Positions 9,308-52,864 of a stretch of 64,000 nt of DNA are shown here, piece by piece. The notes below the pieces were generated by a model. The model saw nothing but the letters and a program-made list of their open reading frames with translations, had not been told where the DNA came from and did not search any database. How positions within the stretch are numbered: position 1 is the first letter of the stretch; each line of letters starts with the position of its first letter. A program made the translations under genes and the position numbers. Origin of the DNA: Tieghemostelium lacteum (Eukaryota; Evosea; Eumycetozoa; Dictyosteliales; Raperosteliaceae); NCBI GenBank assembly GCA_001606155.1, contig LODT01000037.1, positions 248,001-312,000 on the forward strand, in the 5' to 3' direction.

Positions 9308-11752
9308 TTATATTTGGGAATTTACTAGTTTTTTTGATTTTAATCTTTTGTAGAGAACTATAGAGAGTATTATAATAAATAATATCATGAATGCACATGC
9401 ACCTATTAGAGCTTTTGAAAGTGTAGATAGACCATTGTCACTACTTGATGTGGTATTTCCTGATTCTGTGTGTTGTGGATAGGATTCGTATGATATTAAA
9501 CTTTCTAGAGCACTGGTGTTTTGGGGGTCATATTCGTTGTCTAGACTCTTTGATCGCAAAAGCACTGTACCTGAAGTTAGCATGGGTAAGTCACATTTAA
9601 CATTATAGTTATTGGTTTTGGCTGTAACTTTACAATTGTTCAATGGATATGATTTACCATTTTCTAAAATGATGTCAAATTGGTTTCTATCCAGATACTG
9701 TCCTTGGAAATCCACTGAATATAATGTGGCTTGAACTGACTCAATGTGTGGTTGAATATTCACATTTCTAACTAATTCCATTCCATCGACAGTTACTGTT
9801 AATTTACCTTTAGTTACAATAGATGGCAATTTAAATTCCATTTGATTACTTGTAATTTTGACTAAGGTATCATCTAATGAAACTTCAGACAACTTTACTT
9901 GTACCCATTCTTTACCATTTCCAAAGTTCTCACCATTTATAATGAGTAAGTTATTATTATTCACATTGGCAGTGACCAATGTAATCTTGGGTTTGGTAAA
10001 TGTAAATTCTAGTGTATTACTCTCAGTAGACCCTATTCGAATCTTAATTTGTCTATGGAGTACAAGTCCTTCAGGTTTAGTGAATATTATACTATCAGGT
10101 TCAACAGTTTGAACTGCATACCATTCATCTGAAAATTGAACTGAAATTTGGCTAATTGGAACTGAATTGGATTTAAAAAACATTCCATTAACAGTCACAT
10201 GTACCTCTTGAGTTGTCAGAGGTTTACCATTATTTATATTGATAATATAAGGTACCAAAACCACATTAGATATAATTTGAGTTATGTCTTCATACTGAGC
10301 TGTTAACACACCACTTATAGCATCAAAAGGTACTCTACATTCCATTGTCTTTAGTGTCACATCATCTGTAACTCTGGTACATTGCAATAAACTATCACCA
10401 AGTCTAAAGCTAACCAAATTAAATTCATATAAATTATCATAATTAAATGTTATAGTATCCCAATGTTGACTAACATTTTCAAATTTCTGATTGACTAGAC
10501 TAAACAATCCCTCGTGTACAATGTCACTTGTAATCACTAATACCTGGTACTCTCTGTTTGGTCTAAAACCACTAGCATTGAGATTACAAACTAGAGTAAC
10601 ACTATCTTGTAAAACTGGATTTTGACATGATATTTCATCGACTGTTACCTCCAAAGGACTTGTGAAATTCACACTACCAACAACAGTCACCAATCCACTG
10701 CTATTAAAAGCAACATTGGAAACAACATTAAATAAAGGAATTCGGGTAACATCAGAAGATTCATTGACTAATGAAAATTTGATTATAGAATCGCTACAAA
10801 ACATGGTAACTGTATTGTTTAAAGCTACTACAGAAGCAATAGATGAGATATTGAATGGCTGTGAATTGGTGATTTTGTTTAAACCTTTACTGGAAATGGT
10901 AACTATGACTATTTTAGACTCGATATTGGTACCTGTAATGAGTAGGGTACCTTCATGGTAGGTATTAGTATAGACATCAGTAAGTGAGAGCGAAATAGTT
11001 TCTATGATTTGAATGGTATCTTGAGAGTAGGTAGCACGTATTAACACATGTCCATTGAATTTACTGGTACCTATGAAATACATTTGATTATCAATAGTAT
11101 TAAATGATGATTTCTGTGGAATTATTCCAATGAGATTAGAAGGTATAGATAAAGAATTCAAATCATTGCTACCTATTTTTAAATAGTAATTTGAAAAGAG
11201 TATAAAGTCACCTAACTTGTACCCCATATCTAAATGAGTATCGTTACTCATGATTGTCAATGGATTGAAACTACTGATGGAGAGGTTTTCGTAGAGTTCC
11301 AGTGTACCTATAGTGCCATTTATTTCACAGATTAAATGAATGAAAGACTGGTACATGAAAGCCTCTGAATATGATCTTCCATTAAATGTTCCAACCAATT
11401 CACCAGTTTTTGCATTTTCTATAGAAGTACTATTGGAGTTGATTATATATATACTAGTATTACTATTAAATAGATAGTATAGGGTATTAGGTAAAATATC
11501 GAAATCTCTCTGAAATTCAACAGAGAATGTATTTTGGTTTAATATATTCTTATTGACAATTGAAAATGTACCAATATTGGTATTATTATTCACATTTAGA
11601 TTATATATATATTGTGAGTTAACTGTAATGGGAATGAGTCTACTAAACTTTGTAGTTGATGGCAAATATAAAAAATTATAGAGATCAGCATTGATGATAC
11701 TGCTGAATTGTAAAACAGTTATAAGTGTAATGACTAGGTTAATTGTGTTCAT
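9308..11752 (-). CDS. Tiger-like (IPT/TIG repeat) type I membrane protein
   Basis: An 814-residue, single-exon gene. Residues 1-22 are a signal peptide (ending SSIINA). About 360 residues of beta-rich, Asn/Ser/Thr-rich ectodomain with many N-glycosylation sequons follow. From about residue 370 come several IPT/TIG-like E-set segments, such as PKITLVTANVNNNNLLIINGENFG. One transmembrane helix (about 783-802) and a basic tail (YKRLKSKK) close it. This is the layout of the dictyostelid tiger (Tgr) family, whose TgrB1/TgrC1 pair mediates cell adhesion and kin recognition in D. discoideum. I cannot tell whether this is an orthologue of either or a side branch. It heads the ComC-like array on the same strand, and TG/CA-rich boxes lie 80-370 nt upstream. 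Confidence 0.72.
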   Translation of the reverse strand: MNTINLVITLITVLQFSSIINADLYNFLYLPSTTKFSRLIPITVNSQYIYNLNVNNNTNIGTFSIVNKNILNQNTFSVEFQRDFDILPNTLYYLFNSNTSIYIINSNSTSIENAKTGELVGTFNGRSYSEAFMYQSFIHLICEINGTIGTLELYENLSISSFNPLTIMSNDTHLDMGYKLGDFILFSNYYLKIGSNDLNSLSIPSNLIGIIPQKSSFNTIDNQMYFIGTSKFNGHVLIRATYSQDTIQIIETISLSLTDVYTNTYHEGTLLITGTNIESKIVIVTISSKGLNKITNSQPFNISSIASVVALNNTVTMFCSDSIIKFSLVNESSDVTRIPLFNVVSNVAFNSSGLVTVVGSVNFTSPLEVTVDEISCQNPVLQDSVTLVCNLNASGFRPNREYQVLVITSDIVHEGLFSLVNQKFENVSQHWDTITFNYDNLYEFNLVSFRLGDSLLQCTRVTDDVTLKTMECRVPFDAISGVLTAQYEDITQIISNVVLVPYIININNGKPLTTQEVHVTVNGMFFKSNSVPISQISVQFSDEWYAVQTVEPDSIIFTKPEGLVLHRQIKIRIGSTESNTLEFTFTKPKITLVTANVNNNNLLIINGENFGNGKEWVQVKLSEVSLDDTLVKITSNQMEFKLPSIVTKGKLTVTVDGMELVRNVNIQPHIESVQATLYSVDFQGQYLDRNQFDIILENGKSYPLNNCKVTAKTNNYNVKCDLPMLTSGTVLLRSKSLDNEYDPQNTSALESLISYESYPQHTESGNTTSSSDNGLSTLSKALIGACAFMILFIIILSIVLYKRLKSKKLVNSQI

Positions 11753-12353
11753 GTTTCTTGGATCGTAAGGATGAAAAATTGAATCACTTTTGATGATTTA
11801 AATTCTTTATCAATCGTTTATTCAAAGTAAAGTGTGGGTGTGAGTGTGTGGGGATAGTAAAATATGTACATTGTTTACTTTCACTCTACACTCACGAAAT
11901 CTATTGAGTGTGTGCTGGGGTATTTAGTTTTTTCATTCGAAAATCAATTCACCAACAACCACGATTAATTTCTAAATAAATTTATTTACTTGCATCTTTT
12001 GTTTAAAATTTTATTTTGGTGGGTGTTAGAGTGGTTGTGATCATATCCAGTCTTAGTGATCATCCAAATAAAAATAAAAATTTTTTTTTTAATTCAAACA
12101 TTAAACTCACAACACCACATCATCACCATTTTTTATCATAAATTTTAAAGTTTTGATGATGTATTTAAATAGTAGTGATATCACTTTTCTAATTTGGTAT
12201 AGGAGGCAAAAATGACTTTTCAATTGCCAATAAATATTATTTTAATAATTTAAATATTGTTTTTCACATTTCTCAATTAGGTTTAATCTTTACATTGACT
12301 TTTATAGACACTGTGAGTGTTTAGTTATGATAAACAACATCACAACAACCCCA
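11753..12353. promoter_or_regulatory. Upstream region of the tiger-like gene with TG/CA-rich boxes
   Basis: This 600-nt gene-free region contains G/T-rich and C/A-rich tracts that stand out from the A+T background: 11831-11854 (GTGTGGGTGTGAGTGTGTGG), 11882-11896 (CACTCTACACTCACG), 11906-11920 (GAGTGTGTGCTGGGG), a TGGGTG/GTGGTTGTG cluster near 12020-12040 and CACAACACCACATCATCACC near 12108. D. discoideum G-box binding factor (GBF) uses TG/CA-rich elements to drive post-aggregative genes, so developmental control is a reasonable inference. A 12-bp perfect palindrome AGTGATATCACT lies at about 12175. No coding sequence is seen. Confidence 0.5.
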
Positions 12354-15300
12354 CTATCCAAAATTTTTTAATTTATTACCCATTTTTTCAACCAGTGCTT
12401 TTGATTGCTTGGTTTTGTAAATGTAATAGATTACTGATATGACAACTACAGATGCAAATCCTATAGAACCAATGATAATACCTGCTAATTGGGATTTTGA
12501 AAGTTTAGATTTATAAGAAGAAGAATCTTCTGATTTGGTACATATGGAATTGGATTTATCAGATGCTGGTGTGGTATCGATAAGAACTGAGAAATCAGGA
12601 TCAAGAGTAGCTGATGATTTGTAATTTGGTATATTGATTCCAATGTATGTCTGTGACATGGTATTAATGGAAGTACTATTATTGGTATAGATTGTGTTAC
12701 TGATTTGTTGAATTCTGTTATCAATGATACCTCTTTTGATGAATCTACCATAGAGTGAATGGGTGTCAACTTGAAGTTTAACAAATTCAGAAAAGTTTTC
12801 ATTATCAATATCACCACTTTCTTGAACTGAACATGTTGACTCATTAGGTGATTCTGATTCCAATGCAACTGACATTACCAATTGAAGTGTATTGAGAGCT
12901 GATGAGAACTGGTATTTAGAAATATCCATTCTGTATTTGATGGTTGATGCCAACATTTCAAGTTTCTCATTGGCGAATATAATAGTTTCAGGTTGTTTAA
13001 AGAATTGAAGTGTAATAGTTACACCAGTTAAAACATTATTATTGGTGATATTAGTTTTATAGGTGAATTCTTGAATGTTACTATTGGATTGAAGTGATGT
13101 TGTGTTGGTGTATACCCATTGAGTGAATGGATGTTCAATGACTATTGTTCCATCTGGTTTTAATTCTTTCAATGATACAATTGAAATTAATGATTTCAAA
13201 GTTATGGATTCACCATCTGGAAGAGTTGTATTGAAATTATTATCAATATCAGGATTAGTTGTGTTGATTGTTGGTGCTGGAACAATGATGTTTTGGGATA
13301 GACAATCTAATCCAAACCATGGTTTGACACATTGACATTTACCATTTATACATTGTCCATTTGAAGAGCCACCACATGATGGTGTTCCAGGACACTGTGT
13401 ATTAGTTGATGATGGTGTTGGACTTGGTATAATCGTAGGTTGAGGACCACTATTTGGTTTAATTACAACTGTATTTGAATTTGAAGGTGAACTTTGAATA
13501 GTAACATTAGTTGCTGTTACTATAGGTGTAATATTATTTAATATTATTACAGTTGCTCCAATTGATGATTGTTGATAACTTTGTGTTCCTACCAATACAG
13601 TAGAAGGTTTACTGAATCTTCTTCCTACAATAGTAAGAGATGTCCCATCAAGTCTAACCTTTTCAATATAAGGTGTTTCAACAGTAAAGTATTCAATTGG
13701 AATGACAGGATTAAATCCTACTCTAAGATCAATTGGACTCATACCTCCAACATTATAGTTAGTATCAGTGTAACCAAAGACTGATATTAATAGACTGTCA
13801 CCTGGAGCTCCATATCCATATGGAATTTGAATGTAACATTCAAAATCTACAGTGACCCCCTGTTCGGTCTTGGCATTAGCAGGAAATTTAAGAATATCAA
13901 AAACACCAGCATGTAGATAACAATATGGTAAACTATGCGAGATCATAACTTCACTTCCAGTGTCAGCAACAGTGAAAGATACAGTTACATAACGATCGAT
14001 ATCGAATGGAGATGTCACATCTATTGGGTTGGTTAAATTAACCGAGAATTGAGATATAGTAGGTGGAGTAACATCTGTATATGCAATTTGGCAATTAACA
14101 TTAATAGACAGTGTATCAAGTACCGTTAGATTACCAATGAGATTTAATAATGGTGAAAATGCATTTGATGGTAGCTGTCTATTTTTGTAGTGAAAGGTGC
14201 TAGTGTGAAACCCATTATCCATTAGTTCTATGGAGTATATATAGTAAGTCTGTGAAGCACAAGATGGTGAAATGATAAGGGAAACTGTATAGGATTCTTC
14301 ATAAATATCTTGATTTGTTAATGGTGAGATTGTAAATACATATGGTACATATGGGTCCAGGGTCGAAGCAACCTTTATAGTTCCATTACTGAACCCAGTA
14401 CCAGGATCAGATATCTTAAAAGTCCAAGATATCACACCACCTTGAGCAGTGGTAACAGATGGTGAAGATTTCATATCAACTATTTGTGGTGGCATGTGAT
14501 CAGCATTTAATGAATATATCTTTAATTGCCAAGCATCTGTAAACTCAGAGCTATAATGCACAGTATTTTTATAATACAATACAATAGGTACATAGTTATC
14601 TGTGAAAACCATTGGTGGGATATAGAAATCCAATGTATGCATTTGAAATTTCTCATTCCAGTTGGCCCTATGTGATTTTTCAGTTAATCCTGGTAAAGAC
14701 TCAAAAACTACAATGACAGGGAAATCTTTAGTGGTACCTGACATTTTTATAAATATTGTATTTTGACATCCAACAATAGAAAGATCTATATTATTCACTG
14801 TATAGCTGATTTCCATTACTTTTACCACTTCAGTTTGAGTATCTGTAGTTGAAACGAAAGTTAGATATTTTGGTATTCTTATATTTGTTTTATATATATA
14901 TATACTTACAATAGTTATCAAATGTAAAATAGGGTGGAGGTTGTGGTACAGGTAGTCCATAAACTGTGTATTTATAAATTGCTTCATTACCTGCAAAATC
15001 AATTATTCTGACAGGTTCAGACTTTGAAAGAGTAAAGATATAGTCAGGATCACGAGTATCTACATATATTTCAAATTTACCATCTTGGAAAGTACCATTT
15101 CCATTTAACAAATGAGCTGCTGTCAATGTAACTGGGTTCACATAAATAGAAAAGATACCTGATCCTAAAACGTCTGAAGCTCCAACAGTAAGCAAATAGG
15201 TATAATCTGATATGGCAATATAGTTCAAAAATTGCAATTCTGGTACAGTTGCATCTATAGATATTATAAAATTAAAAGGTTAGGTTAATTTGTATTAAAA

Positions 15301-16758
15301 CATTGGTTTGTAACAACAACATACCAGTGGTACCACTTACAGCGGTATTGATGAGTATAAGATCTGGTTGTGTTGCAGCATAAAGATTTTGTAGATATTG
15401 TGGTGGCATTGTTGTAAATTTATATTGTGCAGTTTCACCAGATTTTGATGAAATTCCATAAGGATATGGTTCTGTAGAGGATACCGATATCTTTCCATAT
15501 TTTAGTTCAACTTGACATTCATCATAATTTGTAAATGTACCTGTTATAACCCAAGCTTTATCATCATTTGTTATTGACATACTAGTAATTCCCAATTGAT
15601 CACCTAATACTATATATTATATTCGTAAGTACTTTAAATTAGCATTTAATTAAATAGGGTTAAATATTTACCTGTCGAGAAATATGGAGCAGTTATCAAT
15701 TCTAAAATAGTTGGTCTAAGATAATATGTAGGGATATTAACCATTTGATCTATATTTTTAAATTGAATTGGAAACATTATTGTAAAATTATTTGGTGATC
15801 CTGATACAATTTGAGGTACTATATATTCTTCAGGATCATATTGATCAGTGTACTGATAAAATAGTGCTATGGGATAACCTGCAGCCTTAATGAATGTATA
15901 ATATTGTTTTAATGGATAGTTATAATCAGCATCAAAATAAGCCGTATTTGTAAAATCAAAACTATTATTATCTTTGGCAATAAAAGTTAGTATCATGACA
16001 AAACTTTAAAGAGTTTAAACTAAACTTACTTGGTACAACAAATGAAGGGATATCGAATTTTGTAACTCTTCCAAGAGGATCACTAATCTCTACCCAAAAT
16101 GGTATATGTGAACTCATTGTTGATTCAAATTTGCATTTTACTTCAACTTTAGTGTAGGTGAGTGCTTGTATCATACAATTATATCCTATAGGATATGCAT
16201 ATTGTACAAGGTTAAAGAAATCAATCAATTTTGTAAGATTGAGATTTAAAACTGCTGTATAAAATTCCATTTGATTTCCACTCTGTGTCAAGTGAAATGA
16301 TGGTGGTGGCTCTAGTAACTGAATAGGGTATGGTAGATTTTCACAATAATAGTTAATGACACCTATTAGTAATTCACCATTTACATTAAATTGAATTAAA
16401 GATTCATTTATAGATAATGTTGCTGTTAAATCAAATGAACAATATGCTTGACTTCCATATGCATTAGATTTAACTGATTGTCCGTTATTATCAATAATCA
16501 CAGTAACACCATTAGGGCAATCAAATGGTGCATCTGGTGAATCTGATACAATTGTAACTATATAATTGTTTACACATGACCCATTTAATGTTGCATACCT
16601 ATTATTACTATATGTTATTGATGTTTCCATTAAAAAATAACCATCTGTTTACAAAAATTAATATTTACTATTTAATTTAAAAAGAAAAATAGATTATTAA
16701 TAAGATAAGTACTTGCACAGGTTATAAATAATATTAAAATTAGGTAATTGATTATCAT
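12354..16758 (-). CDS. ComC-like EGF-domain adhesion protein A
   Basis: Six exons (16758-16713, 16644-16030, 15971-15672, 15603-15325, 15254-14910, 14842-12354) give one 1357-residue frame. All five introns (58-84 nt) are phase 1. Exon 1 is a signal peptide (MIINYLILILFITCA). Exons 2-5 encode beta-rich ectodomain segments of the dictyostelid DUF7743/DUF7949 and DUF7034/DUF7035 kind (recalled from family knowledge, not searched). The last exon holds an IPT-like segment (PYIEKVRLDGTSLTIVGRRF), an EGF module at about 1011-1045 (CPGTPSCGGSSNGQC...CVKPWFGLDC), a conserved membrane-proximal domain (NTTNPDID to SVLIDTTPAS), one transmembrane helix (about 1312-1336) and the tail ending NKLKNFG. This is the layout of ComC, a D. 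discoideum communication-mutant protein. Ligand unknown. Parts of its C-terminal half are identical in DNA to gene C. Confidence 0.82.
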
Positions 16759-16927
16759 TTCCTGCATTTACTATGATATTTTTATTTTTATTTCGATAAT
16801 CAGGTTGGTATTTTTTATCTAAAAATAAATATCTTCAAAATAAAACAGATATTTATATCACCATATTTCCTCAAAAGATATTAAAAAAAAAAAAAATCAT
16901 GATAGGTTATAAATATAATATAATTAT

Positions 16928-19900
16928 TTATCTTGATTGGCTATTTGCTATTTTATTCTGTAAGATTCTTGCAGTTCTTTTGTCTTGTCTTTTTTTGTAT
17001 ACATAGTATACAATGGATACTATAATAACAAGACCAAAACCAACAGCACCAATGATTATACCTATTAATTGGGTTTTTGAAAGTTTGGATTTATCTTCCA
17101 TATTATTTTCAGCACAAATGGAATTTGATTTTTGAGATGCTGGTGTGGTATCGATAAGAACCGAGAAATCAGGATCAAGAGTAGCTGATGATTTGTAATT
17201 TGGTATATTGATTCCAATATAGGATTGTGATTGGGTATTGGTAGATGATGAATCACTAAAGATTGTGTTACTGATTTGTTGGACTCTATTATCTACAATA
17301 CCTCTTTTGATGAATCTACCATAGAGTGAATGGGTGTCGACTTGAAGTTTAACAAATTCACTGACATTCTCGTCATCGGCATTACCACTTTCTTGAACTG
17401 AACATGAAGATACTGCTGAATTTTGTGATTCTAAAGCTACTGACATTACCAATTGAAGTGTATTGAGAGCTGATGAGAATTGGTATCTGGATATATCAAT
17501 TCTGTATTTGATGGTTGATGCCAACATTTCAAGTTTCTCATTGGCAAATATAATGCTTTCAGCTTGTTTAAAGTATTGTAGCGCAACAGTTACACCAGTT
17601 AATACATTATTATTGGTGACATTGGTTTCATAGGTGTATTCTTCTATGTTGGTGTTAGATTGAAGTGATGTAGTATTGGTGTATACCCATTGAGAGAATG
17701 GATGTTCAATAGCTACTGTTCCATCTGGTTTCATTTCTTTTAGTGATACAAAGGCAATAAGAGATTTCAAAGTGACAGTTTCACCACTTGGAAGAGTTGT
17801 GTTATAGTCAGTGTCTACATCAGGATTAGTTTCATTGACTTGTGGTGGTGGTTTAACTATATTTTGTGAGTTACAGTCTGGACCGTACCATGGTTTAATA
17901 CATAGACATACACCGCTGCTACATTTACCATTTGTAGGTCCACCGCATTGAGGTTCTCCAGGACATGGAATTTCAGGTGGTATACTAGGACTATTAGCTT
18001 GAACCAACCAGTTATTAGAAGGCACAGAATTAATAACAACAGATACATTGCTAATAGATCTAATAGGTAATGTATTATTTATAATAATAACGGATGACCC
18101 TATTGGAGTGACTTGATAAACATCAGCACCAATGTTAACAGTACCGCTAGAACTGAATTTCTTGCCCACAATAGTCATGGTATTACCACTGGATTTAACA
18201 TCTTGTATAAATGGTGCACCAGTAGTTGAGAATGTAACATTAATGACAGGGTTGAAATTAACTGATAAACTCAAAGTAGACATACCACCAACATTTAAAT
18301 GGGTATCTGTATAACCAAATATTGATACAACTAAACTTGGATTTACATCTGGACCACCATACCCAAATCCATAAGGTATTTGCATTGTGCATTTAAATGT
18401 GGCACTAAGTGAAGTATTGGAAACTACTGCAGATGGGAATGTTAATTTTTCAAATACAGAGGCATGTAGATAGCAATATGGAACATTTCTAGTCAATAAG
18501 ATATCATGTTGAGTATCTGTGATTTTGAATACAACTTCTAGGAGACGGTCACTATCTAATGGTGAACTGACATCAACTGTATTGGATGGAAGAATTTGGA
18601 AACTTTCCATTATTGGTGCTGTAATCTCACGAACTACACCACAGTCTGTTGAAATGGTAAATGAATTTAGAGCAGTTTGGTTGGTAATAAATTGAAGCAT
18701 TGGTGTTACTCTTGTGTCTAGGTTATAGTTGTTATCAGTATAAATACCACTTTGTAATCCATTGTCCATCAATTCAATAGACTTTATATAGAAGTTCTGT
18801 GGAATGCAATTAGGTGGAATTGGTATACTTATAGTGTAACTATCCAATTTTGGGTTCTGAGTGGCACTAGGTTTAATTTCGAATACATATGGCACATATG
18901 GATCAACATTGGAAACAATTTTAATTGTACCATTTTGGAAACCGTTATAAGGATCAGAGATCTTAAATGTCCAACTAATGCTACCACCTTGAGTGTCTGT
19001 AATTGCAGGTGAAGTGGTGATTTCAACAACTTGTGGTGGCATTTGATCAGCATAGGTTGACTTAATTTTCAATTGTAGTTCATCAGGAAGAGCTTTACTG
19101 TCGAATGCAACATTCTTGTAGTAAATAGTGTATGGGACATATTTGTCTGTAAATTGCATTTGGGGAATTTCAAAATCTACCATATATCTTTCAAATTTCT
19201 CACTCCATTTAGCAACAATAAGTTTGTTTTTGAATACTGGTAAACTTGCGAACCCTATAACTGGTGAAATCTCTGGAAGTGAATTTGAGAACTTGATAAA
19301 CATTGTATTTTTACAACCAACTATAGATAAGTCAATATTCATAATGGTAAAACTGACATGAGTAACTGTTACAACTTGGTCCAATGCATCTATAATATAT
19401 TATTAATATAAAGAAAATTTCTATCAACATTTTAATTATACTTACACATAGAATTGTATGGAATATAGATAGGGCTATATGGTGGAAGTGGGGTACCATA
19501 TGAAGTACTAGAATAAATACCAAAGTTACCAGCATAATCAAAAATTTGTCTTCCACTTTGTGGAGTTGGTGAATAAAGAGTTGGTAAATCTCTAGAATCA
19601 ACATATTTTTCAAAGGTACCATTTATAGGAGTACCGCTAACAATATCAGATGCTTTTATCACTATTTGATTATCATTTAATGAAAAGAAACCTGCTCCAC
19701 CTACATCTGATACTCGAATAGTTACCAAATACGAGTACTCAGATAATTTAGTGTATACTAATGATTCAAGCTTTGGTGCAGTTGCATCTATTTAATAGTA
19801 TATACAAGTTAGTTAATATTATAGTGTAAATTTAAAATAGAAGTAATATACTAACCAGTTAAAGTACCAGTAACAGTTCCAGAATACAAATTACCAACAT

Positions 19901-21330
19901 ATGTGCTGATTGACATTGATTTTGTGTATTGAGTTGGTTTAACTACATATTCTAACATAACAACTGTACCAGTTCTCTGAACAACTCCATAGGGATAGGC
20001 CCCATCACCATAACTTATTAAACTACCATAGCTATAACTTGGTGAAATACTATCAAAATTTGTAAATGTACAAGATGCTACTGCTGAATTTGCATCTCTA
20101 TTAAAAGATTTACCACTTGTTGTTGTTGCTAATCTCACTAAAAGATTAAGAATATGTTAGAAATTGAAAATATTTATGACTGCAATTTAATATTTACCTG
20201 TATTACTAAAAGTAACATCATCAATAATTACACCAGTAGTACTTCCATTCATATAGGATGTCACATAATTCTGGGTAGATGGAGCAAATTGTAGATAGTT
20301 CACGAAAACCAATGTAAATCCATTGGTAGGATTACCATATGTAATTAAAGGAGGTTTTACTCCTACACCCATAACTTGTTGATACACATTCTGTATTGGG
20401 TAAGGGTTAGTAACCTGAAGTTCAGTGTAATGTTGTTTAAATGAATATGCTACATCTGAAGGAGTGGAATAGTGTGATATATTATATGATGGTGTAGCAG
20501 TTACTATTTTGTTTGTCAGATTAATGATATTAATATCTAATCCAATATTTTAAAAAATTGAATCAAATATTTACCTGATGATAAAAATGTTGGAATAGAA
20601 AAATTGGATATTTGTCCCAGAGGATCAGTAAATACTACAAAAAATTCTGGATTGATAGTTACAAAGTTTTGTAAATTACATGATATTAATATACTGGAAT
20701 AGTTTAATTGAGAGAAGTAGCAACTGTAGTCAGTGGGAACTGTGAACAATGAGGTATCAATAGCTTTGGTAAAATTTAATCTCATTAATGCAGTATGTCT
20801 ATAATTGTTAACCAAGTCCATATGAAATTTAGGTTGTGGATCCAAGAGTGTGAGTGGATAGGGAACAGGTTGACAATCAAATTGAATACTTCCATTCATC
20901 AAAATAGATCCAGAATAATAAAAATCTAATTGACCAATAGTGTTTATAGGCACTGTAGCACTTAGAGTAACAGCACAAGCTCTAGGTGAACTATTCTTAA
21001 TACTTAATGTACCTGCAATCTGACCTGTTGTATTCACTTGTGCAATTACAGATGCACAAAATATATCAGCATCAGAGGCTTCTGCTAAAACTGATACAGC
21101 ATAGGAAAATAAACAAGTACTAGCTGCAGTTGCATAGGCATTGTTTTGAAATGGAATTGTTGTATCCTCAATATAATATCCCCCTACAAAATTTTCAAAA
21201 TAATTTTTAATTAGTTCTAACCATTTTGGAATAACATTATATTTATACTAAAAAAATAGATGAAATATTTACTTGTAATATTTAACAAAGAGATAAATAT
21301 TGTAAATACATATATTTTAACGTGTGACAT
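16928..21330 (-). CDS. ComC-like EGF-domain adhesion protein B
   Basis: Exons 21330-21273, 21183-20575, 20503-20198, 20137-19856, 19787-19446 and 19389-16928 give a 1352-residue frame with phase-1 introns. The third exon could begin at 20536 instead, which would make the intron before it only 38 nt and add 11 residues; the 71-nt version matches gene C better. The layout is as in gene A: signal peptide MSHVKIYVFTIFISLLNIT, four ectodomain exons, IPT-like segment, EGF (CPGEPQCGGPTNGKC...CIKPWYGPDC), conserved domain with QVDTHSLYGRFIKRG, helix and basic tail (YKKRQDKR). The gap to gene A is only 169 bp, so its terminator and A's promoter share a very short space. It differs from A and C in the EGF-flanking linker. 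Confidence 0.82.
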
Positions 21331-28860: not shown

Positions 28861-28895
28861 GAATAGTTGTCTCTACACACTCAAATAAATTAAAT

Positions 28896-29050: not shown

Positions 29051-29680
29051 CCATATATAGGATATAGAGCAAAGTCAACCACTATCCATTCACCCGTATT
29101 CTCAATTAACATTACTATTCCACCACAATGTATAGCACAGGCATTCGGAGTTGATAATAGTGGTACTAAGAGTGTGTACAATAACTTGACTTACATTTAT
29201 AAAGAGGTTGATAAGAAACCTTTTTTGACCCTTTCATGAAGATACTAGATAACATTGATATGCCAATCAATAGAACTATTGGTACTGATTGTGGTTTGAT
29301 TCCAAGTACTGATTTAGAACCACCTTATATCATCTGTAACTTTCATTCCGGAATTTGTTGATATCAGTGCTTCGAATCATTTGGAGATTACTAACATAAG
29401 ACATACATGAGTCTTTAATTAATAATGGATGTGATTTTGTTAATTACAATTGATTGAAAACAGTCTTTATGCAAAATTTGTAAAGAGAGCTGTTATAGAT
29501 AACAGAATTCAATCTGTTTCCAATACATTCTATAATAGTTCAACTACAAATGTTCAGGTTCAAAAACTAACTGCAACATCTATTAGTATTCTCATTGGAG
29601 TTAAGATACCAAACTATAGATTCAATGCATTGTTAGACCTGATTTCTCTGTTCTTCTTTATGAAATCATATTTTCTTTGA
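29051..29680 (+). pseudogene. Relic of a ComC-like gene, inverted
   Basis: On the plus strand, opposite to the intact copies, three separated pieces match the family: FSINITIPPQCIAQAF (29099 on; like the NVSITIPPNCVSQTF of gene C), IPSTDLEPPYII (like DINPPTLV of gene E) and SLYAKFVKRAVIDNRIQSVS to IGVKIPNYRFNALLD (29459 on; like SLYGRFIKRGIIDNRIQSVS of gene D). The pieces are in family order, but the part that should hold the rest of the ectodomain, the IPT-like segment and the EGF is gone. Stops lie between the pieces. The downstream end is cut within the conserved domain, where the F-box/LRR gene begins. The QSVS wording is closest to gene D. Confidence 0.7.
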
Positions 29681-38648: not shown

Positions 38649-41600
38649 TTATTTATTGGTTTGAAAATTTTGTAATTTGTTCACCAAGTTTTTGTTATAC
38701 TTTTGAGTTTTATGCTTTTTGTAGAAGTGATAGGATACTGATACAACCACAATGGCAGTAAAACCAACAACACCAATGATGATGCCTGCAATTTGGGATT
38801 TTGTAAGTCCGTCTTTGTTATTTTTAATATCTTCAATTTCAGAACATGTAGATTCTGATTTATCAGATGCTGGTGTGGTGTCTATAAGAACTGAGAAATC
38901 AGGGTCTAAAATAGCTTTAGATTGGAAATTGGGAATGTTGATAGAGATAAGTGACATTGACTCTTTACCTGTTTGCTCGTTGGTTATAGTGTTACTGAGA
39001 GTTTGAATTCTGTTATCTATGATACCTCTTTTAATGAATCTTCCATAGAGTGAATGCGTGTCAACTTGAAGTTTAACATATTCACTACCACTATCAATTT
39101 CACCAGACTCTTGTGTTGAACATGATATATTAGGGGATGTAGATTGAATGGATGCAGACATTACAAGCTTTAAAGTATTTAATTTAGATTTGAATGGGAA
39201 TCTTGTAATTTCAATTTTATACTTTAGAGTAGATGGTAACAATTCAAGTTTTTCATTGGCAAAATATATAGATGTCTTTTCAGTGTAATACTGGAGAATA
39301 GCAACAACTGTACAACTGGAATTGGCAGTACTTGTAACATTGGTTTTATAAGTTGATTCTTGCATTACTGTTGAGAGACCTGTGGTGTTGGTATATACCC
39401 ATTGAGTGAAGTTAAATTGTTTTTCAATAGTACCATCAGGTTTCATTTCTTGTAAGGAAACTAATGAGATGAGTGTTTTTAAAGTTACCTGCTCACCATT
39501 TGGAAGTGTTGTATTGAAATCAGTATCAATATCAGGGTTTGTGGTATTTGTGTCTGGTTGTACAATAACGGTTCTTGAGAGACAATCTACACCATACCAT
39601 GAATTTATGCATCTGCAAACACCATTAGTAGAGTCACAAACACCATTGGAAGATCCACCACATTGTGGAGTTCCTGGACATGTTTTTGTAGGTGGTAGAG
39701 AAGTTGGAGGTATGACTCTAATGGGATAGGTATCAACTTTATAAGGTAGACTTAGGTATGAAGAACCACCAACAACAACCCAAACTGATGTCAAATTATT
39801 AAATGTAGTATTTAAACCAACCATGGTAATATAAAAATCTGAATTATTGAATGCTTGTTGATCAATTCTATCTGACATAGCTTCATCTTTGAATATAGAT
39901 ACTATAAGAATTTGGTTGGATGAAAATAGAAAGTTTTTTCCATAAATTGTAAATTGACCTCCCATATTAGATAGTGGGGAGACTGATTCAATAAATGGTT
40001 TGGATTTTGTAAATGAAACAGCTACAGAGCCAACAGGATTCAGTGTATTAAAAGTTAACAATGATTGAGTTGGGAATCCAGCTACATTTAATAAGTTATC
40101 ATAGATACCGTAGATGGAGTACACCAATCTTGTTCCTGCTGCTGCAAATCCAAAAGGAAATTCAAATTCACATTGGAATAGAGCACTTGTTGAGTCTTGA
40201 GCTTTTATATATCCATAGGTTGTAATTTGTTCTAATAGATATCCAGTTACAACACATTCGGGTAGATTATCGTTTTTAATACCATTATTATCTGAGACTG
40301 AAAAGAGTACAGTTAAACTTCTATCTTGCGAAGACATGTCAATTGAATTAGTACTTTGGGAGATATTAACTAAAGTAGGTGGGTTAATATCAATAACAGG
40401 TGTACATGAAATTGAAATAACTAGTTGAGGACTATTCATTACTATAAGAAGAGGGTTGATACCATCGAACCACATTCCACTTTCATAACTAGATATCACC
40501 CCTGAATTGTCCTCTAATTCCATACTGTATATATAAAACTGTTGATCAATACAAGTTTGTTTGACAGTGAAAAAAAGTGAAAAGTTTCCATTTATATCCA
40601 AACTTTCAGGAGTCAACTCAAAGGTTATATCTTGAGGTGTTAGATTAGATCTAACAACAACAGTTCCACGCTTGAAACCATTATGATTCTCCACAATTTG
40701 CATTATCCAACCAATAGCTGAATCTTGAGTTATAGAAGGTGTAATTGAAGGTATTGCCATAACACTTTTAATTATAGGTGGCATTCTATCTGCAAAATCA
40801 GATTGAACATATAACTGTGCAGAATCATCAAAACCCATATACTGTAAATCATGGCTATAGAAATACAAGTCAGGGTAATAAATGAGATAGGGTATAATTC
40901 CAGTGAATTCTCTTGCTTTTAAATCAAAATCCACTGTATACATCTGAACTTTTTCATCCCAATATCCATAAAATACTTCTTCTAATCCAACTAATGTATT
41001 TAAATTATCTGTATAGGTATCTAGAGCGAATCTAATCACCATATTTTTATCAACACTGGTAAAGTTTACATATAATTTATTCTGACATCCAATATCTGAT
41101 AAATCAATAGCATTACTTTCTCCACCTCCAATCATAAATCTAATATAACTTATTTTTAATGAAGTATATTGTTCCACTATTGAACAATAATAACAGTTAG
41201 AAATATTTGGAAAATTAAAGTTACTATTATTAATACATACAATAATTGTAATTGTTTGTTATTACACCTGGAAATGATATATTCAAATATTCTGAACTAA
41301 ATTCCATAGTATTACCAGCAATATCATAAAGTACAACTGTGGTATCATAACTAATAAATTTTGAGTAATCAACCACTTTTTGGTAGAGTCCATTACCAAT
41401 GGATCCAAAAAACATATCACTAGAATCAATAGTTATATGATCACCTATTGTTAGTTTTAATATTCCAGAGTTATCATTAGAGCTCATTGTTAGGGCCATT
41501 GTCATGTTGTTTAATGGTTTTATAGTCAATTGCGTTAAATTAGGTGGAGTGGTATCAGCTATTATATATATTTGTTAGTAAATATTAAAATGAATTTATA

Positions 41601-43080
41601 AATAACTATAATTACTTTTAGAATGACCAGCTGTAGCTGTATAAGAGGAACCACTAATATCAATTAAAGATGTATATTCAGTTGCAAGAATTGTGATTAC
41701 ACCTTGATTTTGGCCTGTCATTCCAAATTTAAAATATTGATTATAAATACTTCCAATATATACATCAGTTTTATAATCAGTCAGATTTTGAATATTTAAT
41801 ACCAATTGGTACAATGTTAGTATATCACCTCCTTCTTGAAATAATTGTGGAGAAAATGTTTTGATATTTTGTATTACTATAATCAATGAATAAATATTAG
41901 TAGTTATTTTTATATGGTTAAATTTATTAAAATACATACTTTCAATATTATAAGTTACTTTAGTAGTACTAGAAGCATTTAAGATTCCAATATTATTATT
42001 TGTGTAATAAAATGGACAGTATTCGTATGTAGCTGTTGGTGATCCTGGTATACCAGGAATTGTATAAACAACTTCTCTATATGTTTTATTACCTAGAACA
42101 ATATGAGTTCTCTTTGGTATAGATCCAGAAGTTTGACCTGTATTATATAATACAACCTCAACTAAAGGTGCATTATTTTCTACCTTAAACCAATAAAAAA
42201 AATTATTCATATAAGTAGGTGTTAGTGATGAAAATCCCATTGCAATAATTTTTGCTGGTTCCTGTATAGCTATTGTTGTAATCATTAATATAATTGATTT
42301 AAAACAAATTTTGTAGTTCATTTTTAATTACCATTTAAAAAATTTGGAATTTGATAAGAATTTGATCTTCCGAATGGATCAGAAATGGTAATGTTAACTT
42401 TTGGAATGGGACCATTTGCAGTATTTGGATCTATATTTTTCAAAGAACATATAACTACCAGGGTATTAAAATTAAAAAAGGTACCTGGTGTACATTTAAA
42501 TGGTGATGCTGCAACTAGTTGATAAGCACTATCCGCTCTTTTGCTGATATTAAATTTTACTAATACTGAATATTCATTATGCAAATTAATTGGTCCTTTA
42601 AATGTATAGGTTGAACTGTCCACTAATAAAGGAGGCGGTAAAAGCTCACAATTATAGGTTGTATAATTCGGGTAAGAAAATGATGGTAATGTTATTCCTA
42701 TTCCACCTGTACCAGGATTTAATTTTACTTCAAATTGAATCATGGCATATCTAGTACCTAATCTTGAAACAATTGGTATACCTTGTAATGTGCCACCTGT
42801 AACACCAAAATTATTAAAATTACCAACCAATAGATTATCATCAATCAAAACTCTATAATTAAAATAACAAAATGGATCTGATCCAGCATTTCCATATTTA
42901 TCATTAAAATTTAATGGAGTATAATCACCTAAAAATTGATATGATTCTACAAGTACTTTAAATAGGTCAATATCATCTCTACCTGATTTTCACTAATCAA
43001 TCTAGATAAATACCTGAAATTTCACATAATAAAATCAAAAATATTAAAATATTTATAAATTTTATATATGTATTATTCAT
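38649..43080 (-). CDS. ComC-like EGF-domain adhesion protein E
   Basis: Exons 43080-43014, 42946-42332, 42269-41940, 41876-41616, 41558-41241 and 41176-38649 give 1372 residues, all introns phase 1. Intron 41877-41939 (63 nt, GTATGT...ATAG) has no in-frame stop and would be missed by simple reading. Exons 2, 3 and 4 have exactly the lengths of those in D (615, 330, 261 nt). The signal peptide is MNNTYIKFINILIFLILLCE. The ectodomain shares FMIGGG and QYMGFDDSAQLYV with D. The EGF module reads CPGTPQCGGSSNGVC...CINSWYGVDC, then come the conserved domain (SLYGRFIKRGIIDNRIQ), a helix and a tail ending NKLQNFQTNK. D and E are the product of a tandem duplication newer than the A-C split. Confidence 0.82.
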
Positions 43081-44902: not shown

Positions 44903-47900
44903 TTAATTTGAACAGGTTGGTTGATATTTACATTTTTGGGAGGTGGATTGAACTAGAATACAACGATGAGGAGATTTACATGTTATATCAGCACAGGTAA
45001 TACAAGAATATTGTTTAACACATTTATAGATTTGATTTGATTTTTCCATACATTCATAACCTAAAGCACATGATAATTGAAAACATGATTCACCTTGATA
45101 CATATCAAATTGATTTACACAGATATGAGAATTTGGTAAACATATTTGTCCTCTAACACAAATACAATCATTGTTAACTGTATTGTTTTGTTGAACATGA
45201 GTAGAGGGTGTTGTTGTAGTGGAAGTGATTAATGGTTGGATACTAGTTGCAGTAGTGGTGACAGGTGGTTGAGTACCAGTACCTGTTTTTGCAGTACTTG
45301 TTGTTGTACCTGTTGTTGCAGTACCTGTTGTTGTAGTACTTGTTGTTGCAGTACTTGTTGTAGTAGCAGTTATTGGTGATGTACCTGTTGTTGTAGTGGT
45401 TGGGGTTGGTACACAATTCTTGATGATATCATCCTCTGGATATTCACAAATGTTATTATTCAATCCAAATATTCTGAGAATAAAGAATTGAGGAACTCCA
45501 AGACCCAATGTCACTGCACCTTTTTGACAAATAAAAATATCCAATTTATGTGGATTGTTGTTTGGATCTTTTGAAATATTGAAATCTGCATTGTTTTGAC
45601 TGTTGTTACGATCGATGGAGTCCATAACCAATTGGTTGTCCATGAATGCTGACATTTCATAATTGGTTCCAACGAATGATATTCCATTTCTTTCAGTTGT
45701 GTTGGCACAATACCAAAGTCTAATAACCATACACCAATTGTTGTTTGAGAATTCTCCTTCTTTTCCATATCCATAATTATCTATTATTTTTAATCCATAT
45801 TCAGTTGATCCGACAAAGTTAAAACTACCATCAGAATCAGAACGAGTAAAAAGTGAATAGAAGTCTACTTCATCAGAAATATATTTTCCAAATGATTTGT
45901 TGAATCTGTTTGAATAAGTTTGAGAACTCTCTATCCAAACCTTTTCAGTTGCATGGATTGGACTTGTCATATTCAATTTTGGAAGATAACAATTATCAGC
46001 TGTCAATTCTGGTGCTGTGAAACCTCTCAACCCAGCGCCACCTTCATGCTTCTGTTCAAGATTGAAATCAGTTTCATTCTTCAAATGATCCACGAAATAC
46101 GATGGTGCTCTGAATGGAAGCCAGGATGTTGTGTTTACAGTTGGATTAGCTGAAAATATTTTAATTCTATCATTAATTATATTTAAATATGTAATTGAAA
46201 TTGTAACAATGGTTGATTTTCTTTTTGTTTTATACAAGATGTTGGACAGACTTTGTAAAAAATTTGGATCTCTATTTGTATTAAATACTTGTAGCTCACT
46301 ATTTGAAATACTAACAACATCAGATGATATATTGCTAGATGATGAAAATGATAATTGATCCATTACATCAATACCATCCAAGACTTTAAATGTAATGAAT
46401 TGAACATTACAAGCTGATGAAGTTGGATTAAAATTAGATTCTAAGAAACGATATTCACCATTTGAGTTATAGGCAATAGAGGAATTATTGATATTCAAAG
46501 ATGCTGATATTATAGTTTTTTGACCAAATAATATATAATTTATACCATTATAAAAATATTCTATTACATCTAGTATACCATCATTATTAAAATCAACCCA
46601 TGTGGAAGAAATAACTTTTGTGTTTAATATTATAAAACCTCTACAATCACCAAATAATGGAGATGTTTTAATATTCAAATCATAAACAGATGGTAATTTC
46701 ATTGTGGTTCCATATACTCCCCAAGTATATTCAAGAGAAAAAACATTACATGATATATCTGATATACCATCTCCATTAATATCACCAACATACATAGATT
46801 TGCATATTTCCTGAGGTGAAGATACATCTCTGACCCATTTAACAACTTCGGAAGAGTTACCACTGTTGATATCAAAATGAGATTCCCAAATTCCACCTTT
46901 TTTACCATATATCATAAAAATTGAATTTGAATCCTGATAAGCTACTGCCATATCTTGTAATCCATCACCATTGAAGTCACCAAAACCACTCTGAAGTATA
47001 TATTTGAAATCATTAGCTTTAATATCCATTGTAAAACCATTAGTTCCATTTAATACGGGATCGTATTTAGTTGGATAAATTTTTAAACCAAATATAACAC
47101 TACCAGTACCATCCGAAAGTATTACCAAATCATCAATATCATCATTATTCAAATCTCCACAACCAAAATTTATAGTTAATTTCCTATTCATAATATGTCC
47201 ATAAGTTCCATTCGATACATATTTAATATCAAATTTTCCAGAATTGGTTGGAAACTTTTTACCATTATCAAGTCCATAGAGAACAAAAACTTCGTCTTCA
47301 GTATTAAATATCAAATCATTTATACCATCTCCATTATGATCACATAAAACTTGATAGGCAGCGTATTTGGTCTCCTGAGTATTAGCATAATCAATTATAA
47401 ATCCCTCAATTCCATCAAAATTTGAAAAATCATTCTTAAATGGTCCTGCATTGCCATAAATTATTTTTAATTGACCAGTTTTCACTCGAATTATAATTTC
47501 ATCATATCCATCGTTATTTATATCTCCACATAGAGGGTAATTCTGAAGTTCTCTTTTAGTAGTGGCAATACTGAAACCATTGATTCCATCAATCATTGAA
47601 TCTTTTAAAGGTCTCTGTCCACCATATCGTGAGAGATCACCAAAAAATACATATTGATTTTTTGTTTGAAAATCTGATATGATAAAATCCTAATTTATTA
47701 TTTATGTTAGTTTATTTATACACTATATAATTTCAAATTAAAAACTTACTTGTTTACCATCACCATTAAAATCAAAACCTCCAGTTTTAAATTCAGTATG
47801 GAAATCTAAACTATAACTATTAGTATCATTCATTAAACTCTCTGATGATGGGAAACCAATATTTATAGATATCTTTAGAAAAAAAATTAGTAAGAGAACT

Positions 47901-48435: not shown

Positions 48436-48483
48436 TCAATATTAAGTAAATAGTTTGTAAATGTTGTTCGACAAACACCTATT

Positions 48484-51400
48484 TTAAGGGTTCATTAAAG
48501 ATTTTATTTTTTCTTGAATAAAAGTAAAATGTTTACGTTCTTGTTCTTTCAAGTGTCTAACGTAGAGGAATGCTATGATAACTGCAATTAGAAAGACACC
48601 TGCGATGGCAATTCCTATGATTTGACCAGTGGTTAAACGTCCTTTGGCTAGGCTGTAGCATATAGCGTTTGGTAGATCACCTGCATTTACAGCTTCGAAT
48701 AACATGGAGAAATCAGGATCTAATTGAACGAAATGGTCGTAATATGGTATATTGATGCCAATGATTTTAGAGGATTCTGATGAAGATGAATCACTACTGT
48801 TATCATCTGAAAATTGGTTGGTTATCAAGTGTACTTTGTTATCTATAATTCCTAGATTGATTAATCTGGTGTATAGTGAATATCCATTGATTTGAAGTTT
48901 AAGGTAATCAGATTTAGAATTGATCTTTCCAGAATCAGAATTTGAACAGGTATCCACTTCTTGATCCATTTTAATAGACACTGGCATCTGCAGTTGAATA
49001 CTATTGAATGTGGATGAAAATGAATAGGAAGATAACTCAATTTTATATTTCATTGTAGATGGCATCATATCAAATTTTGCAGAGGCGAATGAAACTGGTG
49101 TCTTTTGTAGAAAGTATTGTACAAGTACTGTTACATTGGTAATCCGTCCTTGGTGTGTAAAGTTACTTTTGTAGCTGTATTCTTGTATATTTGGAGTAGA
49201 AAGTTGAGTTGTGTTGGTGTATATCCATTCATTTAGGTTATGAGTGTTGACTATTGTTCCATCAAAGGTTAGTTCAACTAGTGATCGCACTGATACCAAG
49301 GATTTTAAAGTTACTGTTATACCAGTATCAATAGTAGTGCTATAATCATTCTCTAATGTTGGACTGGATGTACTTATATTTGGTGTTATAGGTATGATTT
49401 GTGAGAGACAGTCTACACCAAACCAAGGATCAATGCATACACATCCCAATGTTGTTGAACATTGTCCGTTGGAGGGACCACCACACACTGGTGTACCTGG
49501 ACATGGTGGTGGAATTGGGTATTTAACAGGAACTATATTCACTCTATATGCATTTGATACCATACCATTACTATTCTTTACACGTAAATCCAATACCATG
49601 CCACTACTTGATATTCCTTGTATCACTAAATACAATGAATTCACATAAATAGGTGCAAAAGTGCTAACAGATGAGTTTTGGTGGGTTACTAAAACACTAG
49701 TGGTATTGATAAAGTTTCTACCAAATATAGATACAATTCCATTATTGTTATTGTGAACTAGAGCATCTGTTATCATTGGAGTATCTTTACTGTAGGTTAC
49801 ATTAATAACTGGATTCCAACCACCATTTATTAGGTCAATAGTAGATATTCCACCTAAATTTGAGTATATATCAGTGTATCCTTGTAGAGATACAATGATT
49901 TTAGTATCTATACTACCAAATCCCAATGGTAGATTGGTGGAACATTGAAAAGTAGCTGTTGTATTAGTGCCATTTAAAAATTTAGCCTGCACAAAGTATT
50001 GGTCAAGTGGAACTGCTGATATTTTACATTTTGGTAGGTTTAGTCTAGATACACTAGTGTCATCCTGAACTGTAAAGGTTACAATCAAGTCTCTTTCATA
50101 TCTACTTGTATCAATACTATTGACATTAGTTTCAAAGTTGGTTACAATTGGTGGTGTAGTATCAGTATGGCTTGCACATTCTATTGAGATACCTAATTGA
50201 TCCGTTTGATTATTCATTATATACAAAAGTGGAGATATATAGTGATGTTTTGTGGAATTTCCAGGATCAAATCTACTAATATATCCATTTTTATCCATTA
50301 ACTCGATGTAGCTTATATAGTACGTTTGAGATGTACATTGTGATTGAATTGGTATCTCAACAGTATAGTTAAACTCTGAGGTAGGGTCTATAGTAAACTT
50401 ATAAGTATATTCAAATACACCAAGATTACTAGTGACTTTAATTAAACCACTCTGTATACCATTGATAGGGTCAACAATAGTAAATGTCCATCCTATACTC
50501 ATATTAGTCTGTACCTGTACATTTTGATTAACACCACTTGGAAATGCGACAATTTTTGAAATTAATGGAGGCATTTGATCTGCATAGTCAGATCTTACAA
50601 TTAATGGATAATCCATATCTAAACTATCAAAAGTCAAATCTGGATAGTACACCTGATAGTGTACAGGCCCACTATACATGGCAGTTGGTAACACAAATTC
50701 AACTGTGAACAATTCCTCTGTTTCATTCCAATGTCCATAGAAAACCTTTGGGTAAGGATCCCTGGGATTCAATATCAATCTAATAACCATTTCTCTATCT
50801 GAATTTGTGAAATTTACATACAATGAATTTTTACATTCAATAAATGTTAAATCTACATTATTCATATCAAATCTTAATTCACTAATTTCTATACCAGCAT
50901 AAGGATTACCTATTAAAAATAACATTATTAGTATAATAAGTTATAAAACTTTTTTACCTCATAAACATACCGTAATCCTGTTGGTCCAAAATAACCTTTG
51001 GGTATCTTAAAAAGTTTTTGGTTGTTGAATAAACCATATCTTGTGTATTATTATACAAGTTAACGTCTCTTATATAATAAGTTCTCGTTCTAAGGTTCAT
51101 TCTAGAATAGTCAACGTATATTTCATAAGACACAACACCATCGTCATCATAATAAGTAACATAATCAAATACTGTTCTATCATGAGGTTTCACTAAAATA
51201 TCACCCATTTGAATTGATTGAATAGGTGAAAAGGCACCATCATAAGTTTCACCCTGTAATATCATTCTCATACCAGTCAATGGAATAACTCTTAAATTTA
51301 CCCACTTTGGTTTTTCTTCATCGTATTTATCTATATTTACATTAATATTAATATCAATAAATTATCTCATGATATAATTTATAGTGGTGGTTATTAAATA

Positions 51401-52864
51401 ATATATACCTTTCAGAATTTCATAAGTCAAACCAGTAAAGAATTTCAATTTCATATGGTAGATTCCTACTAGAAATGAAAAATCATAGATTCCATTAGCA
51501 TAAGTTCCACCAATCATTGATAATTCAATTTGTACTGTAGGACCTTCCCAAACATCTACAGTTAATGTAGCTTCGTTCTTGTTTAAGTATCCAATTTGAG
51601 CTTGAAAACTATACAAATTCAATGATGTGATATTATAGAAATTGTCACTTATAACCGTCATATTATTTGATATTTTAGCTATTGGAATTTAAGAATTAGT
51701 CAATCTTCAAAAATATTCAATAAATAGATAGATATACATACAGATAACAGAATATTGGGATATTGAATTGGTATCTTGTATTAATGATTGTTGGTGATTG
51801 TATATAGTTGAATATTCAATGGATTTTGAAATATCATATTCGTAGGAATGTAACATTACAGTTTTTATATTATTACCATAGACAATATATGAATCTCTTC
51901 TACCACTTTGATCAGATACCCCAGCATAAAAAATACCATCTTTATAATTTTCAATTGTTACCATATAATACAAATTACGAATAGAATAAGGTATCTTTGG
52001 TGATATATCACTTGTATAGAACTTTTGTACTGAAACATCTGGAGTTCTTTGATCTATTAATTATAGAATTAGTTTATATATTCAAACAATATAATAATTT
52101 AAAAATACAAACCATTAGTTAAAAATGTAGATATATTAAAATAATTATTATTTTTGAGAGTGTCAGTGATGGTTAAATGGATATAAGGGTCTGGTGTGTA
52201 ATTGGGTGGATTAGAATTCAGACCACATACTAATGTCATGGTTTGAATATCTTTCATGTAATGGTAGCAGTAGTAAGGTGGATTTGTATAAACTGTGAAA
52301 TTAGCTCTTTTAGTCAGATTGAATATTAAGTCTATTGTATATTCGTTTTTTGTGTTTATAGGTCCACGAAAGACTCTAGAGTTGTCAGTGGGTACCAATT
52401 CTTGTAATGGATAAGGTATAGGAACACAAGAGTATTTTGTAAGTGATAATGTTGTAAGAACTCCAGAATATATATTACCTCTCACCCAAACATCACCATA
52501 ATCATTTGGTTGTACTTTAGTAATATATCCAAAATTGTAACCCTCTGATAATGCAAATATATCAACAGCTCCATAGTTTCCTATTATAGCTGATGAACTC
52601 CATATTCTACAATACCCAACATCAGTTGGATAATTCCATCCCAAAACTTTAAATCTATAAGGTATTCTACAAAATCCATCATCTCCCACATATGATAATT
52701 GTTCAATTGGATCTGATAAATCAACTATTTCAAATACAGCTATATCCATTATTCCATACTATATATTAATACCCATAATTTAAATACAATATAATCCTAT
52801 ACATACCATCATTTAAATTCAAAGTTGATATCAATAAAATTAATATTACAATGTAATTATACAT
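48484..52864 (-). CDS. ComC-like EGF-domain adhesion protein G
   Basis: Exons 52864-52807, 52739-52113, 52053-51742, 51678-51409, 51330-50971 and 50909-48484 give 1350 residues, all introns phase 1. The intron 52054-52112 has the weaker donor GTTTGT. The signal peptide is MYNYIVILILLISTLNLN. This is the most divergent copy. Its ectodomain shares YPDLTF and RSDYADQMPPLI with both subfamilies. The EGF is CPGTPVCGGPSNGQC...CIDPWFGVDC. The membrane-proximal domain keeps the frame (NGYSLYTRLINLGIIDNKV) but has lost the DTHSLYGRFIKRG wording, and DTTPAS reads AVNAGD. A helix (LTTGQIIGIAIAGVFLIAVI) and a tail rich in Lys/Glu end NP. TG/CA-rich boxes lie 200-390 nt upstream. Confidence 0.8.

Follow-up and report, generated by a model that had tools for sequence, protein, structure and literature searches.

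What do the tandem copies of a cell-surface gene still hold in common when most of their extracellular parts have diverged, and what could that common part be for? The question is raised by a stretch of 64,000 nucleotides from the dictyostelid Tieghemostelium lacteum (D. lacteum in the papers cited), hereafter called the window (C31:248001-312000, in a genome of 23,333,832 bases on 43 contigs), in which six ComC-like genes, abbreviated as g1-g6, lie near a tiger-like gene. A first-pass annotation had proposed a candidate recognition or adhesion locus with "diverging ectodomains over shared signalling ends". The results of our analysis indicate that the part common to the copies is the extracellular stalk, consisting of an EGF-like and a supersandwich domain (SSD), and not the signalling ends, and that this stalk has been homogenised between some neighbouring genes whose heads are old and strongly diverged. 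The six full-length genes of one plan described at first are borne out by splice models, Pfam matches and hydropathy, and the map of open reading frames (ORFs) of the window agrees that the intact surface genes are all on the minus strand. Their positions are as follows, with protein lengths in amino acids (aa) and each assignment based on splice model and Pfam:

12354..16767, minus strand: g1, ComC-like type I membrane protein, 1362 aa, 6 exons (16767-16713, 16644-16030, 15971-15672, 15609-15325, 15254-14910 and 14842-12354)
16928..21330, minus strand: g2, same plan as g1, 1352 aa, 6 exons
21530..25841, minus strand: g3, same plan, 1338 aa, 5 exons in the model
34148..38552, minus strand: g4, same plan, 1363 aa, 6 exons
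38649..43080, minus strand: g5, same plan, 1372 aa, 6 exons
48484..52864, minus strand: g6, same plan, 1350 aa, 6 exons; stalk unhomogenised, DUF7743 unlisted

All six follow an exon plan in which a short exon for the signal peptide, ending in phase 1, precedes the head exons and a last exon of 2.43-2.53 kb; position 52864, at which the annotated feature ended, is the ATG of the signal-peptide exon of g6. The splice models were obtained with a simple dynamic program, the first exon being picked by hydropathy and transcript support being absent, while the large 3' exons of g1-g6 are single open frames and thus model-independent. Compared with the other five models, that of g3 is one intron short.

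The proteins (1338-1372 aa) contain 16-24 N-glycosylation sequons and 18-21 cysteines. Along the large exon the order is DUF7035, DUF7034, an IPT-like stretch, DUF7949 (EGF-like), ComC_SSD, the transmembrane (TM) segment and the tail. DUF7035, DUF7034, DUF7949 and ComC_SSD each score above the Pfam curated cut-offs in every protein, and DUF7743 does so in five of the six, none being listed for g6. The IPT-like stretch was called from motif reading only, as Pfam TIG gives no match in g1-g6 at E 0.1; the signal peptide and single C-terminal TM segment of all six were assigned from the exon model, hydropathy and reading of the C-terminus, with no dedicated predictor. These domains (ComC_SSD, PF22933; DUF7034, PF23033; DUF7035, PF23034; DUF7743, PF24893; DUF7949, PF25820) and the single TM segment match the ComC-like family, a name that refers here to Pfam domain content and not to orthology with D. 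discoideum ComC. Structural comparison added little. AlphaFold2 with the six window proteins reached a mean predicted local distance difference test (pLDDT) of 55.8, with 47-86 in the DUF7035/DUF7034 blocks and lower values in the supersandwich domain; the first Foldseek matches were Ig-like or complement-type beta-sandwich chains at a TM-score of ~0.12, which carries little information, and a PDB sequence search with the six array proteins returned only weak stretches of ADAM22, at E 0.16 or worse.

Sequence identity, expressed as the mean of the six proteins, changes sharply along this plan. It amounts to 28% in exons 1-2, 21% in exon 3, 16% in exon 4 and 27% in exon 5 of the head, then to 36% at the start of exon 6, 40% in DUF7035, 33% in DUF7034 and 27% in the IPT-like stretch with its linker, and rises near the membrane to 69% in the EGF and 60% in the SSD, with 49% in the juxtamembrane part and 51% in the TM segment. 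The cytoplasmic tails, of 20-23 aa, have a mean pairwise identity of 32%, which compared with the 60-69% of SSD and EGF rules out shared signalling tails. The earlier description was therefore right in placing strongly diverged heads over a conserved end, but this end is extracellular. In the 350 bases upstream of each gene, no 8-mer with at least two G/C was found to be common to five or more of the six regions.

The window is one example among many. Profile searches with Pfam located DUF7035 at 101 places in the genome, 99 of them above the cut-off, and gave 108 matches of DUF7743, as well as at least 150 places each for ComC_SSD and TIG (the latter from the best 150 of 314 candidates). When joined at a gap of 15 kb, the 101 DUF7035 places form 61 groups, namely 41 singletons and 20 arrays of 2-6 genes that together hold 60 of the genes, the six-gene array of the window being the largest. 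Adjacent pairs in these arrays are on the same strand in 38 of 40 cases, so the tandem arrangement is not due to chance. It follows that the window locus is one array of many, and the proposal of a candidate recognition or adhesion locus has to be qualified: tandem copies, diverged ectodomains over a conserved end and membership of a ComC-like surface family speak for it, but the locus is not unique. The published assembly of D. lacteum, which comprises 23.4 Mb in 54 contigs free of gaps, has been credited with 76 IPT/TIG and 15 EGF-like proteins (PMC4931340). Set against these counts, the 101 DUF7035 places mark a surface family of large size in a multicellular amoeba.

Synonymous divergence (pS) was then compared between head (DUF7035 plus DUF7034) and stalk (EGF plus SSD) in 47 of the 101 genes, the six of the window and 41 others. 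Their sources are the 30 top-scoring DUF7035 matches, the window genes among them, 20 regions on C2-C14 (four duplicating the top 30, and L041, L042, L043 and L053 without a match) and six chosen regions of C31 (L069 without a match). Both parts were sufficient in 44 genes, L034, L036 and L055 being insufficient, and this yields 946 pairs. The median head pS is 0.65 in neighbours and 0.65 in other pairs, whereas the median stalk pS is 0.41 in the 36 neighbour pairs as opposed to 0.65 in the 910 others. Neighbouring stalks of low divergence show pS values of 0.06-0.44, while the heads of those same pairs are mostly near saturation. A stalk pS below 0.45 occurs in 22 of the 946 pairs, 20 of which lie within 30 kb and the other two on the same contig ~31-34 kb apart; a head pS below 0.45 occurs in just two pairs, both of neighbours. 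Head pS exceeds stalk pS in 27 of the 36 neighbour pairs, compared with 48% of the others. Because pairs share genes, permutation was carried out over gene labels: the mean head-minus-stalk pS of neighbours, 0.236 (n=36), stands against a maximum of 0.104 in 5000 permutations.

Since synonymous sites of the stalk are near saturation between non-neighbours, protein conservation alone cannot explain the similarity of neighbours. The near saturation of synonymous sites in neighbouring heads indicates, in turn, that the array is old, and it rules out a recent burst of duplication for the array of the window. Neighbouring genes also group together in the tree of heads (branch supports not shown). 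This co-clustering, together with the finding that the only two pairs with low head pS are neighbours, disfavours the grafting of different heads onto one stalk among the genes analysed.

Change-point fits to aligned DNA place the homogenised islands of the window as follows:

12695..13394, minus strand: island of g1, from the first EGF cysteine to ~36 codons before the end of ComC_SSD
17269..17965, minus strand: island of g2 versus g3, approximate
21862..22561, minus strand: island of g3

In 13 of the 16 pairs fitted, the 5' edge is no more than 12 codons away from the first EGF cysteine; in the other three it lies at +14, +29 and +45 codons, the last value being that of g1/g2. In four of the 16 pairs this edge is the second of two fitted points. 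The supersandwich domain continues for 36-38 codons beyond the 3' end of the island in g1/g3, in g2/g3 and in the comparison of both g1 and g3 with the C31:237k gene (L023, C31:235840-239271). The latter is the closest relative of g1-g3; it is inverted, has the homogenised stalk in common with them and lies ~9-12 kb outside the start of the window, separated from g1 by ~21-25 kb that contain unrelated genes. Past the 3' end, identity drops from 0.82-0.92 to 0.60-0.68, the TM segment and tail being outside the island. In g1/g2 both edges lie later, the 3' end being 12 codons past the supersandwich domain, and in the array at C2:1116k the similarity extends ~200 bases beyond the domain, stopping at about the stop codon.

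Searches of the genome with DNA queries give the same picture. The stalk of g3 (808 bases, 21754-22561) matches C31:238486-239285 at 87%, g1 at 86% and g2 at 78%, and the remaining matches listed do not exceed 70% except in pieces of at most 90 bases; among the 40 candidates scored out of 53, three matches both exceed 70% and run for more than 90 bases, and these lie within 32 kb, one being inverted. The head of g3 (1301 bases) finds a single 304-base piece of g2, at 69%. Head DNA is ~50-57% identical in most of the fitted pairs, and the segment that precedes the EGF aligns poorly. In the window, a plain exchange of 3' ends by crossing-over is disfavoured, given that identity falls before the TM segment and that the inverted C31:237k gene shares the stalk. 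An inverted partner and an island bounded on two sides point to non-reciprocal conversion rather than simple crossing-over, and we read the homogenisation of stalks between neighbours as regional gene conversion. A mostly open-access literature search found no work on gene conversion in dictyostelid surface genes, no published description of the array or of its regional conversion, and no paper naming these Pfam families, which older papers may treat under other names; passages on tgr genes in a preprint of 2025 (PMC12324515) do not mention comC, EGF or gene conversion.

Related observations were made elsewhere in the genome. The younger pair L034/L036 (C31:201-214k) differs from the other fitted arrays in that low synonymous divergence starts upstream of the EGF. 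Short stalk-like fragments of 36-46 bases and 96-97% identity, perhaps relics or leftovers of exchange, lie beside arrays at C31:234790-234835 and C2:1127063-1127098. Arrays of ComC_SSD at C21:141887-227734 and C34:283153-294841 have no DUF7035 match nearby and represent a further class within the family; at C34 the scores of the four copies are nearly alike (110-112 bits), and their stalks may be homogenised too.

How could such a locus have come about? We propose, with slightly more confidence than doubt, that it is an old array of adhesion or recognition receptors with diverged binding heads and a locally homogenised, interchangeable stalk, the largest tandem array of a dictyostelid family of ~100 ComC-like type I cell-surface glycoproteins. 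The heads (exons 2-5, DUF7743, DUF7035 and DUF7034) diverged long ago between array neighbours, while the stalk (EGF and most of the supersandwich domain) has been homogenised in g1-g3 and in several other arrays, in our reading by regional gene conversion, with a 5' edge where the variable linker meets the first EGF cysteine. That exchange does not reach further 5' is likely due to the variable segment in front of the EGF and to head DNA of only about 50% identity. Each head may bind a partner, be it another amoeba, matrix or prey, and the stalk may have to stay interchangeable among neighbours, for instance if different copies assemble side by side in one membrane. Conversion of one extracellular module in an array-specific manner would then predict that neighbours share a partner in cis.

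The remaining features of the window are listed below:

9308..11752, minus strand: tiger-like (IPT/TIG) type I membrane protein, 814 aa, single TIG match at E 4.7e-5
29435..29638, plus strand: relic, a supersandwich fragment, inverted and 43-46% identical to the family
32057-32950, plus strand: AAA/STAND-like ATPase ORF between g3 and g4, AAA_22 at E 6.6e-6, just under the cut-off
44903..47596, minus strand: FG-GAP repeat protein, Pfam E 1e-12, without match to the array domains

The relic is real, as described earlier, and points to birth and death of copies. The FG-GAP part of the annotation "FG-GAP/fibro-slime" holds, while fibro-slime has no support in Pfam or NCBIfam at E 0.1; in the explanation that we propose, this gene is a bystander of the array. 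The AAA/STAND-like ORF, on the strand opposite to that of the array, has a possible upstream exon from ~31.5 kb. Flanking ORFs carry Pfam domains of pseudouridine synthase, phospholipid-translocating ATPase, CTLH/U-box and poly(A) polymerase head. The tiger-like gene was correctly recognised at first; its product has a signal peptide and a TM segment (judged by eye), no match to PDB sequences at E 1 and a best genomic paralogue that is only 30% identical across query residues 354-727, and is thus a distant singleton.

Whether this neighbour points to a system of the TgrB1/TgrC1 type, as had been suggested, can be judged from several sides. The tiger-like ORF shares its strand with g1 and sits 0.6 kb away from it, its product and the array proteins all resemble single-pass surface proteins, and TgrB1/TgrC1 also belong to a large lineage-expanded family. 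Moreover, Tiger families are widespread in dictyostelids (PMC4931340; PMC3188802) and a general role in allorecognition has been suggested for them (PMC3188802), which counts against our dismissal of the tiger gene. However, 76 IPT/TIG proteins in 23.4 Mb correspond to ~0.14 expected per interval of 43.6 kb, and 20 arrays exist, so that a tiger-like gene beside one of them is compatible with chance; no second tiger gene was found in the window among the best 150 of 314 genome candidates for TIG, or in the subset of window ORFs scanned. While tgrB1 and tgrC1 are linked (PMC11088635), their orthologues are reported solely in group 4, tgrB1 being listed as limited to that group and tgrC1 to D. 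discoideum (PMC4931340), with a tgrC1 orthologue in D. purpureum, also of group 4 (PMC3188802). The array proteins also have another set of Pfam domains and short unconserved tails: the intracellular domain of TgrB1 is nearly invariable between alleles (PMC11088635), as against the 32% of the array tails, although the latter compare paralogues and not alleles. A ligand-receptor unit of tiger-like gene and array, forming an allorecognition locus, is consequently very improbable, and the tiger-like gene is probably a bystander.

The conversion could be a neutral by-product, the stalk alone being similar enough for strand exchange in a set of ordinary, independent adhesion proteins that have neither an assembly nor a recognition code in common; this would fit the low identity of head DNA, the poorly alignable stretch before the EGF and ratios of nonsynonymous to synonymous substitution (dN/dS) that stay below 1 in all windows measured. 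Such a reading agrees with the facts, but leaves unexplained why 60 of 101 genes are in arrays and why the stalk is constrained at all, and we regard it as possible though doubtful. Reads of the 454 type are shorter than the stalk, and near-identical stalks might have been collapsed and then pasted onto differing heads. Such reads were used for the published D. lacteum assembly (PMC4931340), yet a collapsed consensus would be identical, whereas the high-identity segments differ at ~1-22% of bases, with rates that vary between arrays; the probability of this artefact is negligible. As to function, the array might encode receptors with which feeding amoebae recognise prey or bacteria rather than one another. 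Large copy number and many separate arrays would suit many ligands, COMC is among the genes expressed in Physarum amoebae (PMC8865844), and a table of how D. discoideum responds to two Pseudomonas aeruginosa strains gives values of -0.65, -0.39 and 0.26 for comC (PMC2474670), quoted here without their column heads. On the other hand, the D. discoideum relative comC, which is listed as confined to group 4 (PMC4931340), has a mutant with aberrant aggregation (PMC2873529) and is considered important for intercellular communication (PMC8865844). From this phenotype and role, adhesion or recognition during aggregation is our leading guess for the function of the array and feeding the second; we hold the prey reading to be unlikely. 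The likelihoods of these explanations do not sum to one because the explanations overlap; a prey receptor could, for example, have a stalk that assembles in cis.

Several results weigh against the old receptor array with an interchangeable stalk. Within the window the signal is strong for g1-g3 only, being weak in g4/g5 (pS of 0.72 in the head and 0.57 in the stalk) and absent in g6; in nine of the 36 neighbour pairs head pS is not above stalk pS, and the comparison covers 47 of the 101 genes. No positive selection, and no sign that the heads diversify rapidly, was found in five neighbour pairs, for which the large exon only was scanned with low power where synonymous divergence (dS) is saturated: dN/dS is at most 0.78 in all windows with measurable dS, two windows with zero dS giving no ratio. 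The GC content at third codon positions (GC3) does not rise in converted stalks, being 0.161 in the stalk and 0.152 in the head of 18 genes with homogenised stalks, and 0.176 and 0.155, respectively, in 29 other genes. Finally, assembly in cis by the stalk is something that we purely infer.

The closest parallel is provided by the clustered protocadherins, nerve-cell recognition genes of vertebrates. In those of fugu, the variable exons of neighbouring genes diverge in their 5' part but are near-identical in their 3' part, with a discrete boundary between the two, a pattern attributed to regional gene conversion (PMC1852091). The Pcdh2 subclusters resemble the amoeba arrays in having tandem genes with a divergent distal ectodomain, a homogenised ectodomain near the membrane and a discrete boundary between them, and also in that the converted region differs from one subcluster to another, as it does between arrays. 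There are clear differences, too. The amoeba copies have no cadherin domain according to Pfam and are complete genes with their own tails, without shared constant exons; the TM segment and tail of g1-g3 are outside the island; and homogenisation reaches ~78-99%, as compared with >99% in fugu, where GC3 is raised. Given that no cadherin domain was found, that GC3 is not raised and that positive selection was not seen, the parallel is one of working and not of kinship. Carried further, it would suggest an identity code evolved independently, in which ~100 receptors, mostly in arrays, combine freely diverging recognition heads with a cis-assembly stalk that conversion keeps interchangeable within each array, and mixed complexes label the cells; this we consider improbable. 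The pattern of clustered protocadherins, in which heads diverge and stalks converge, would have here a second and unrelated case.

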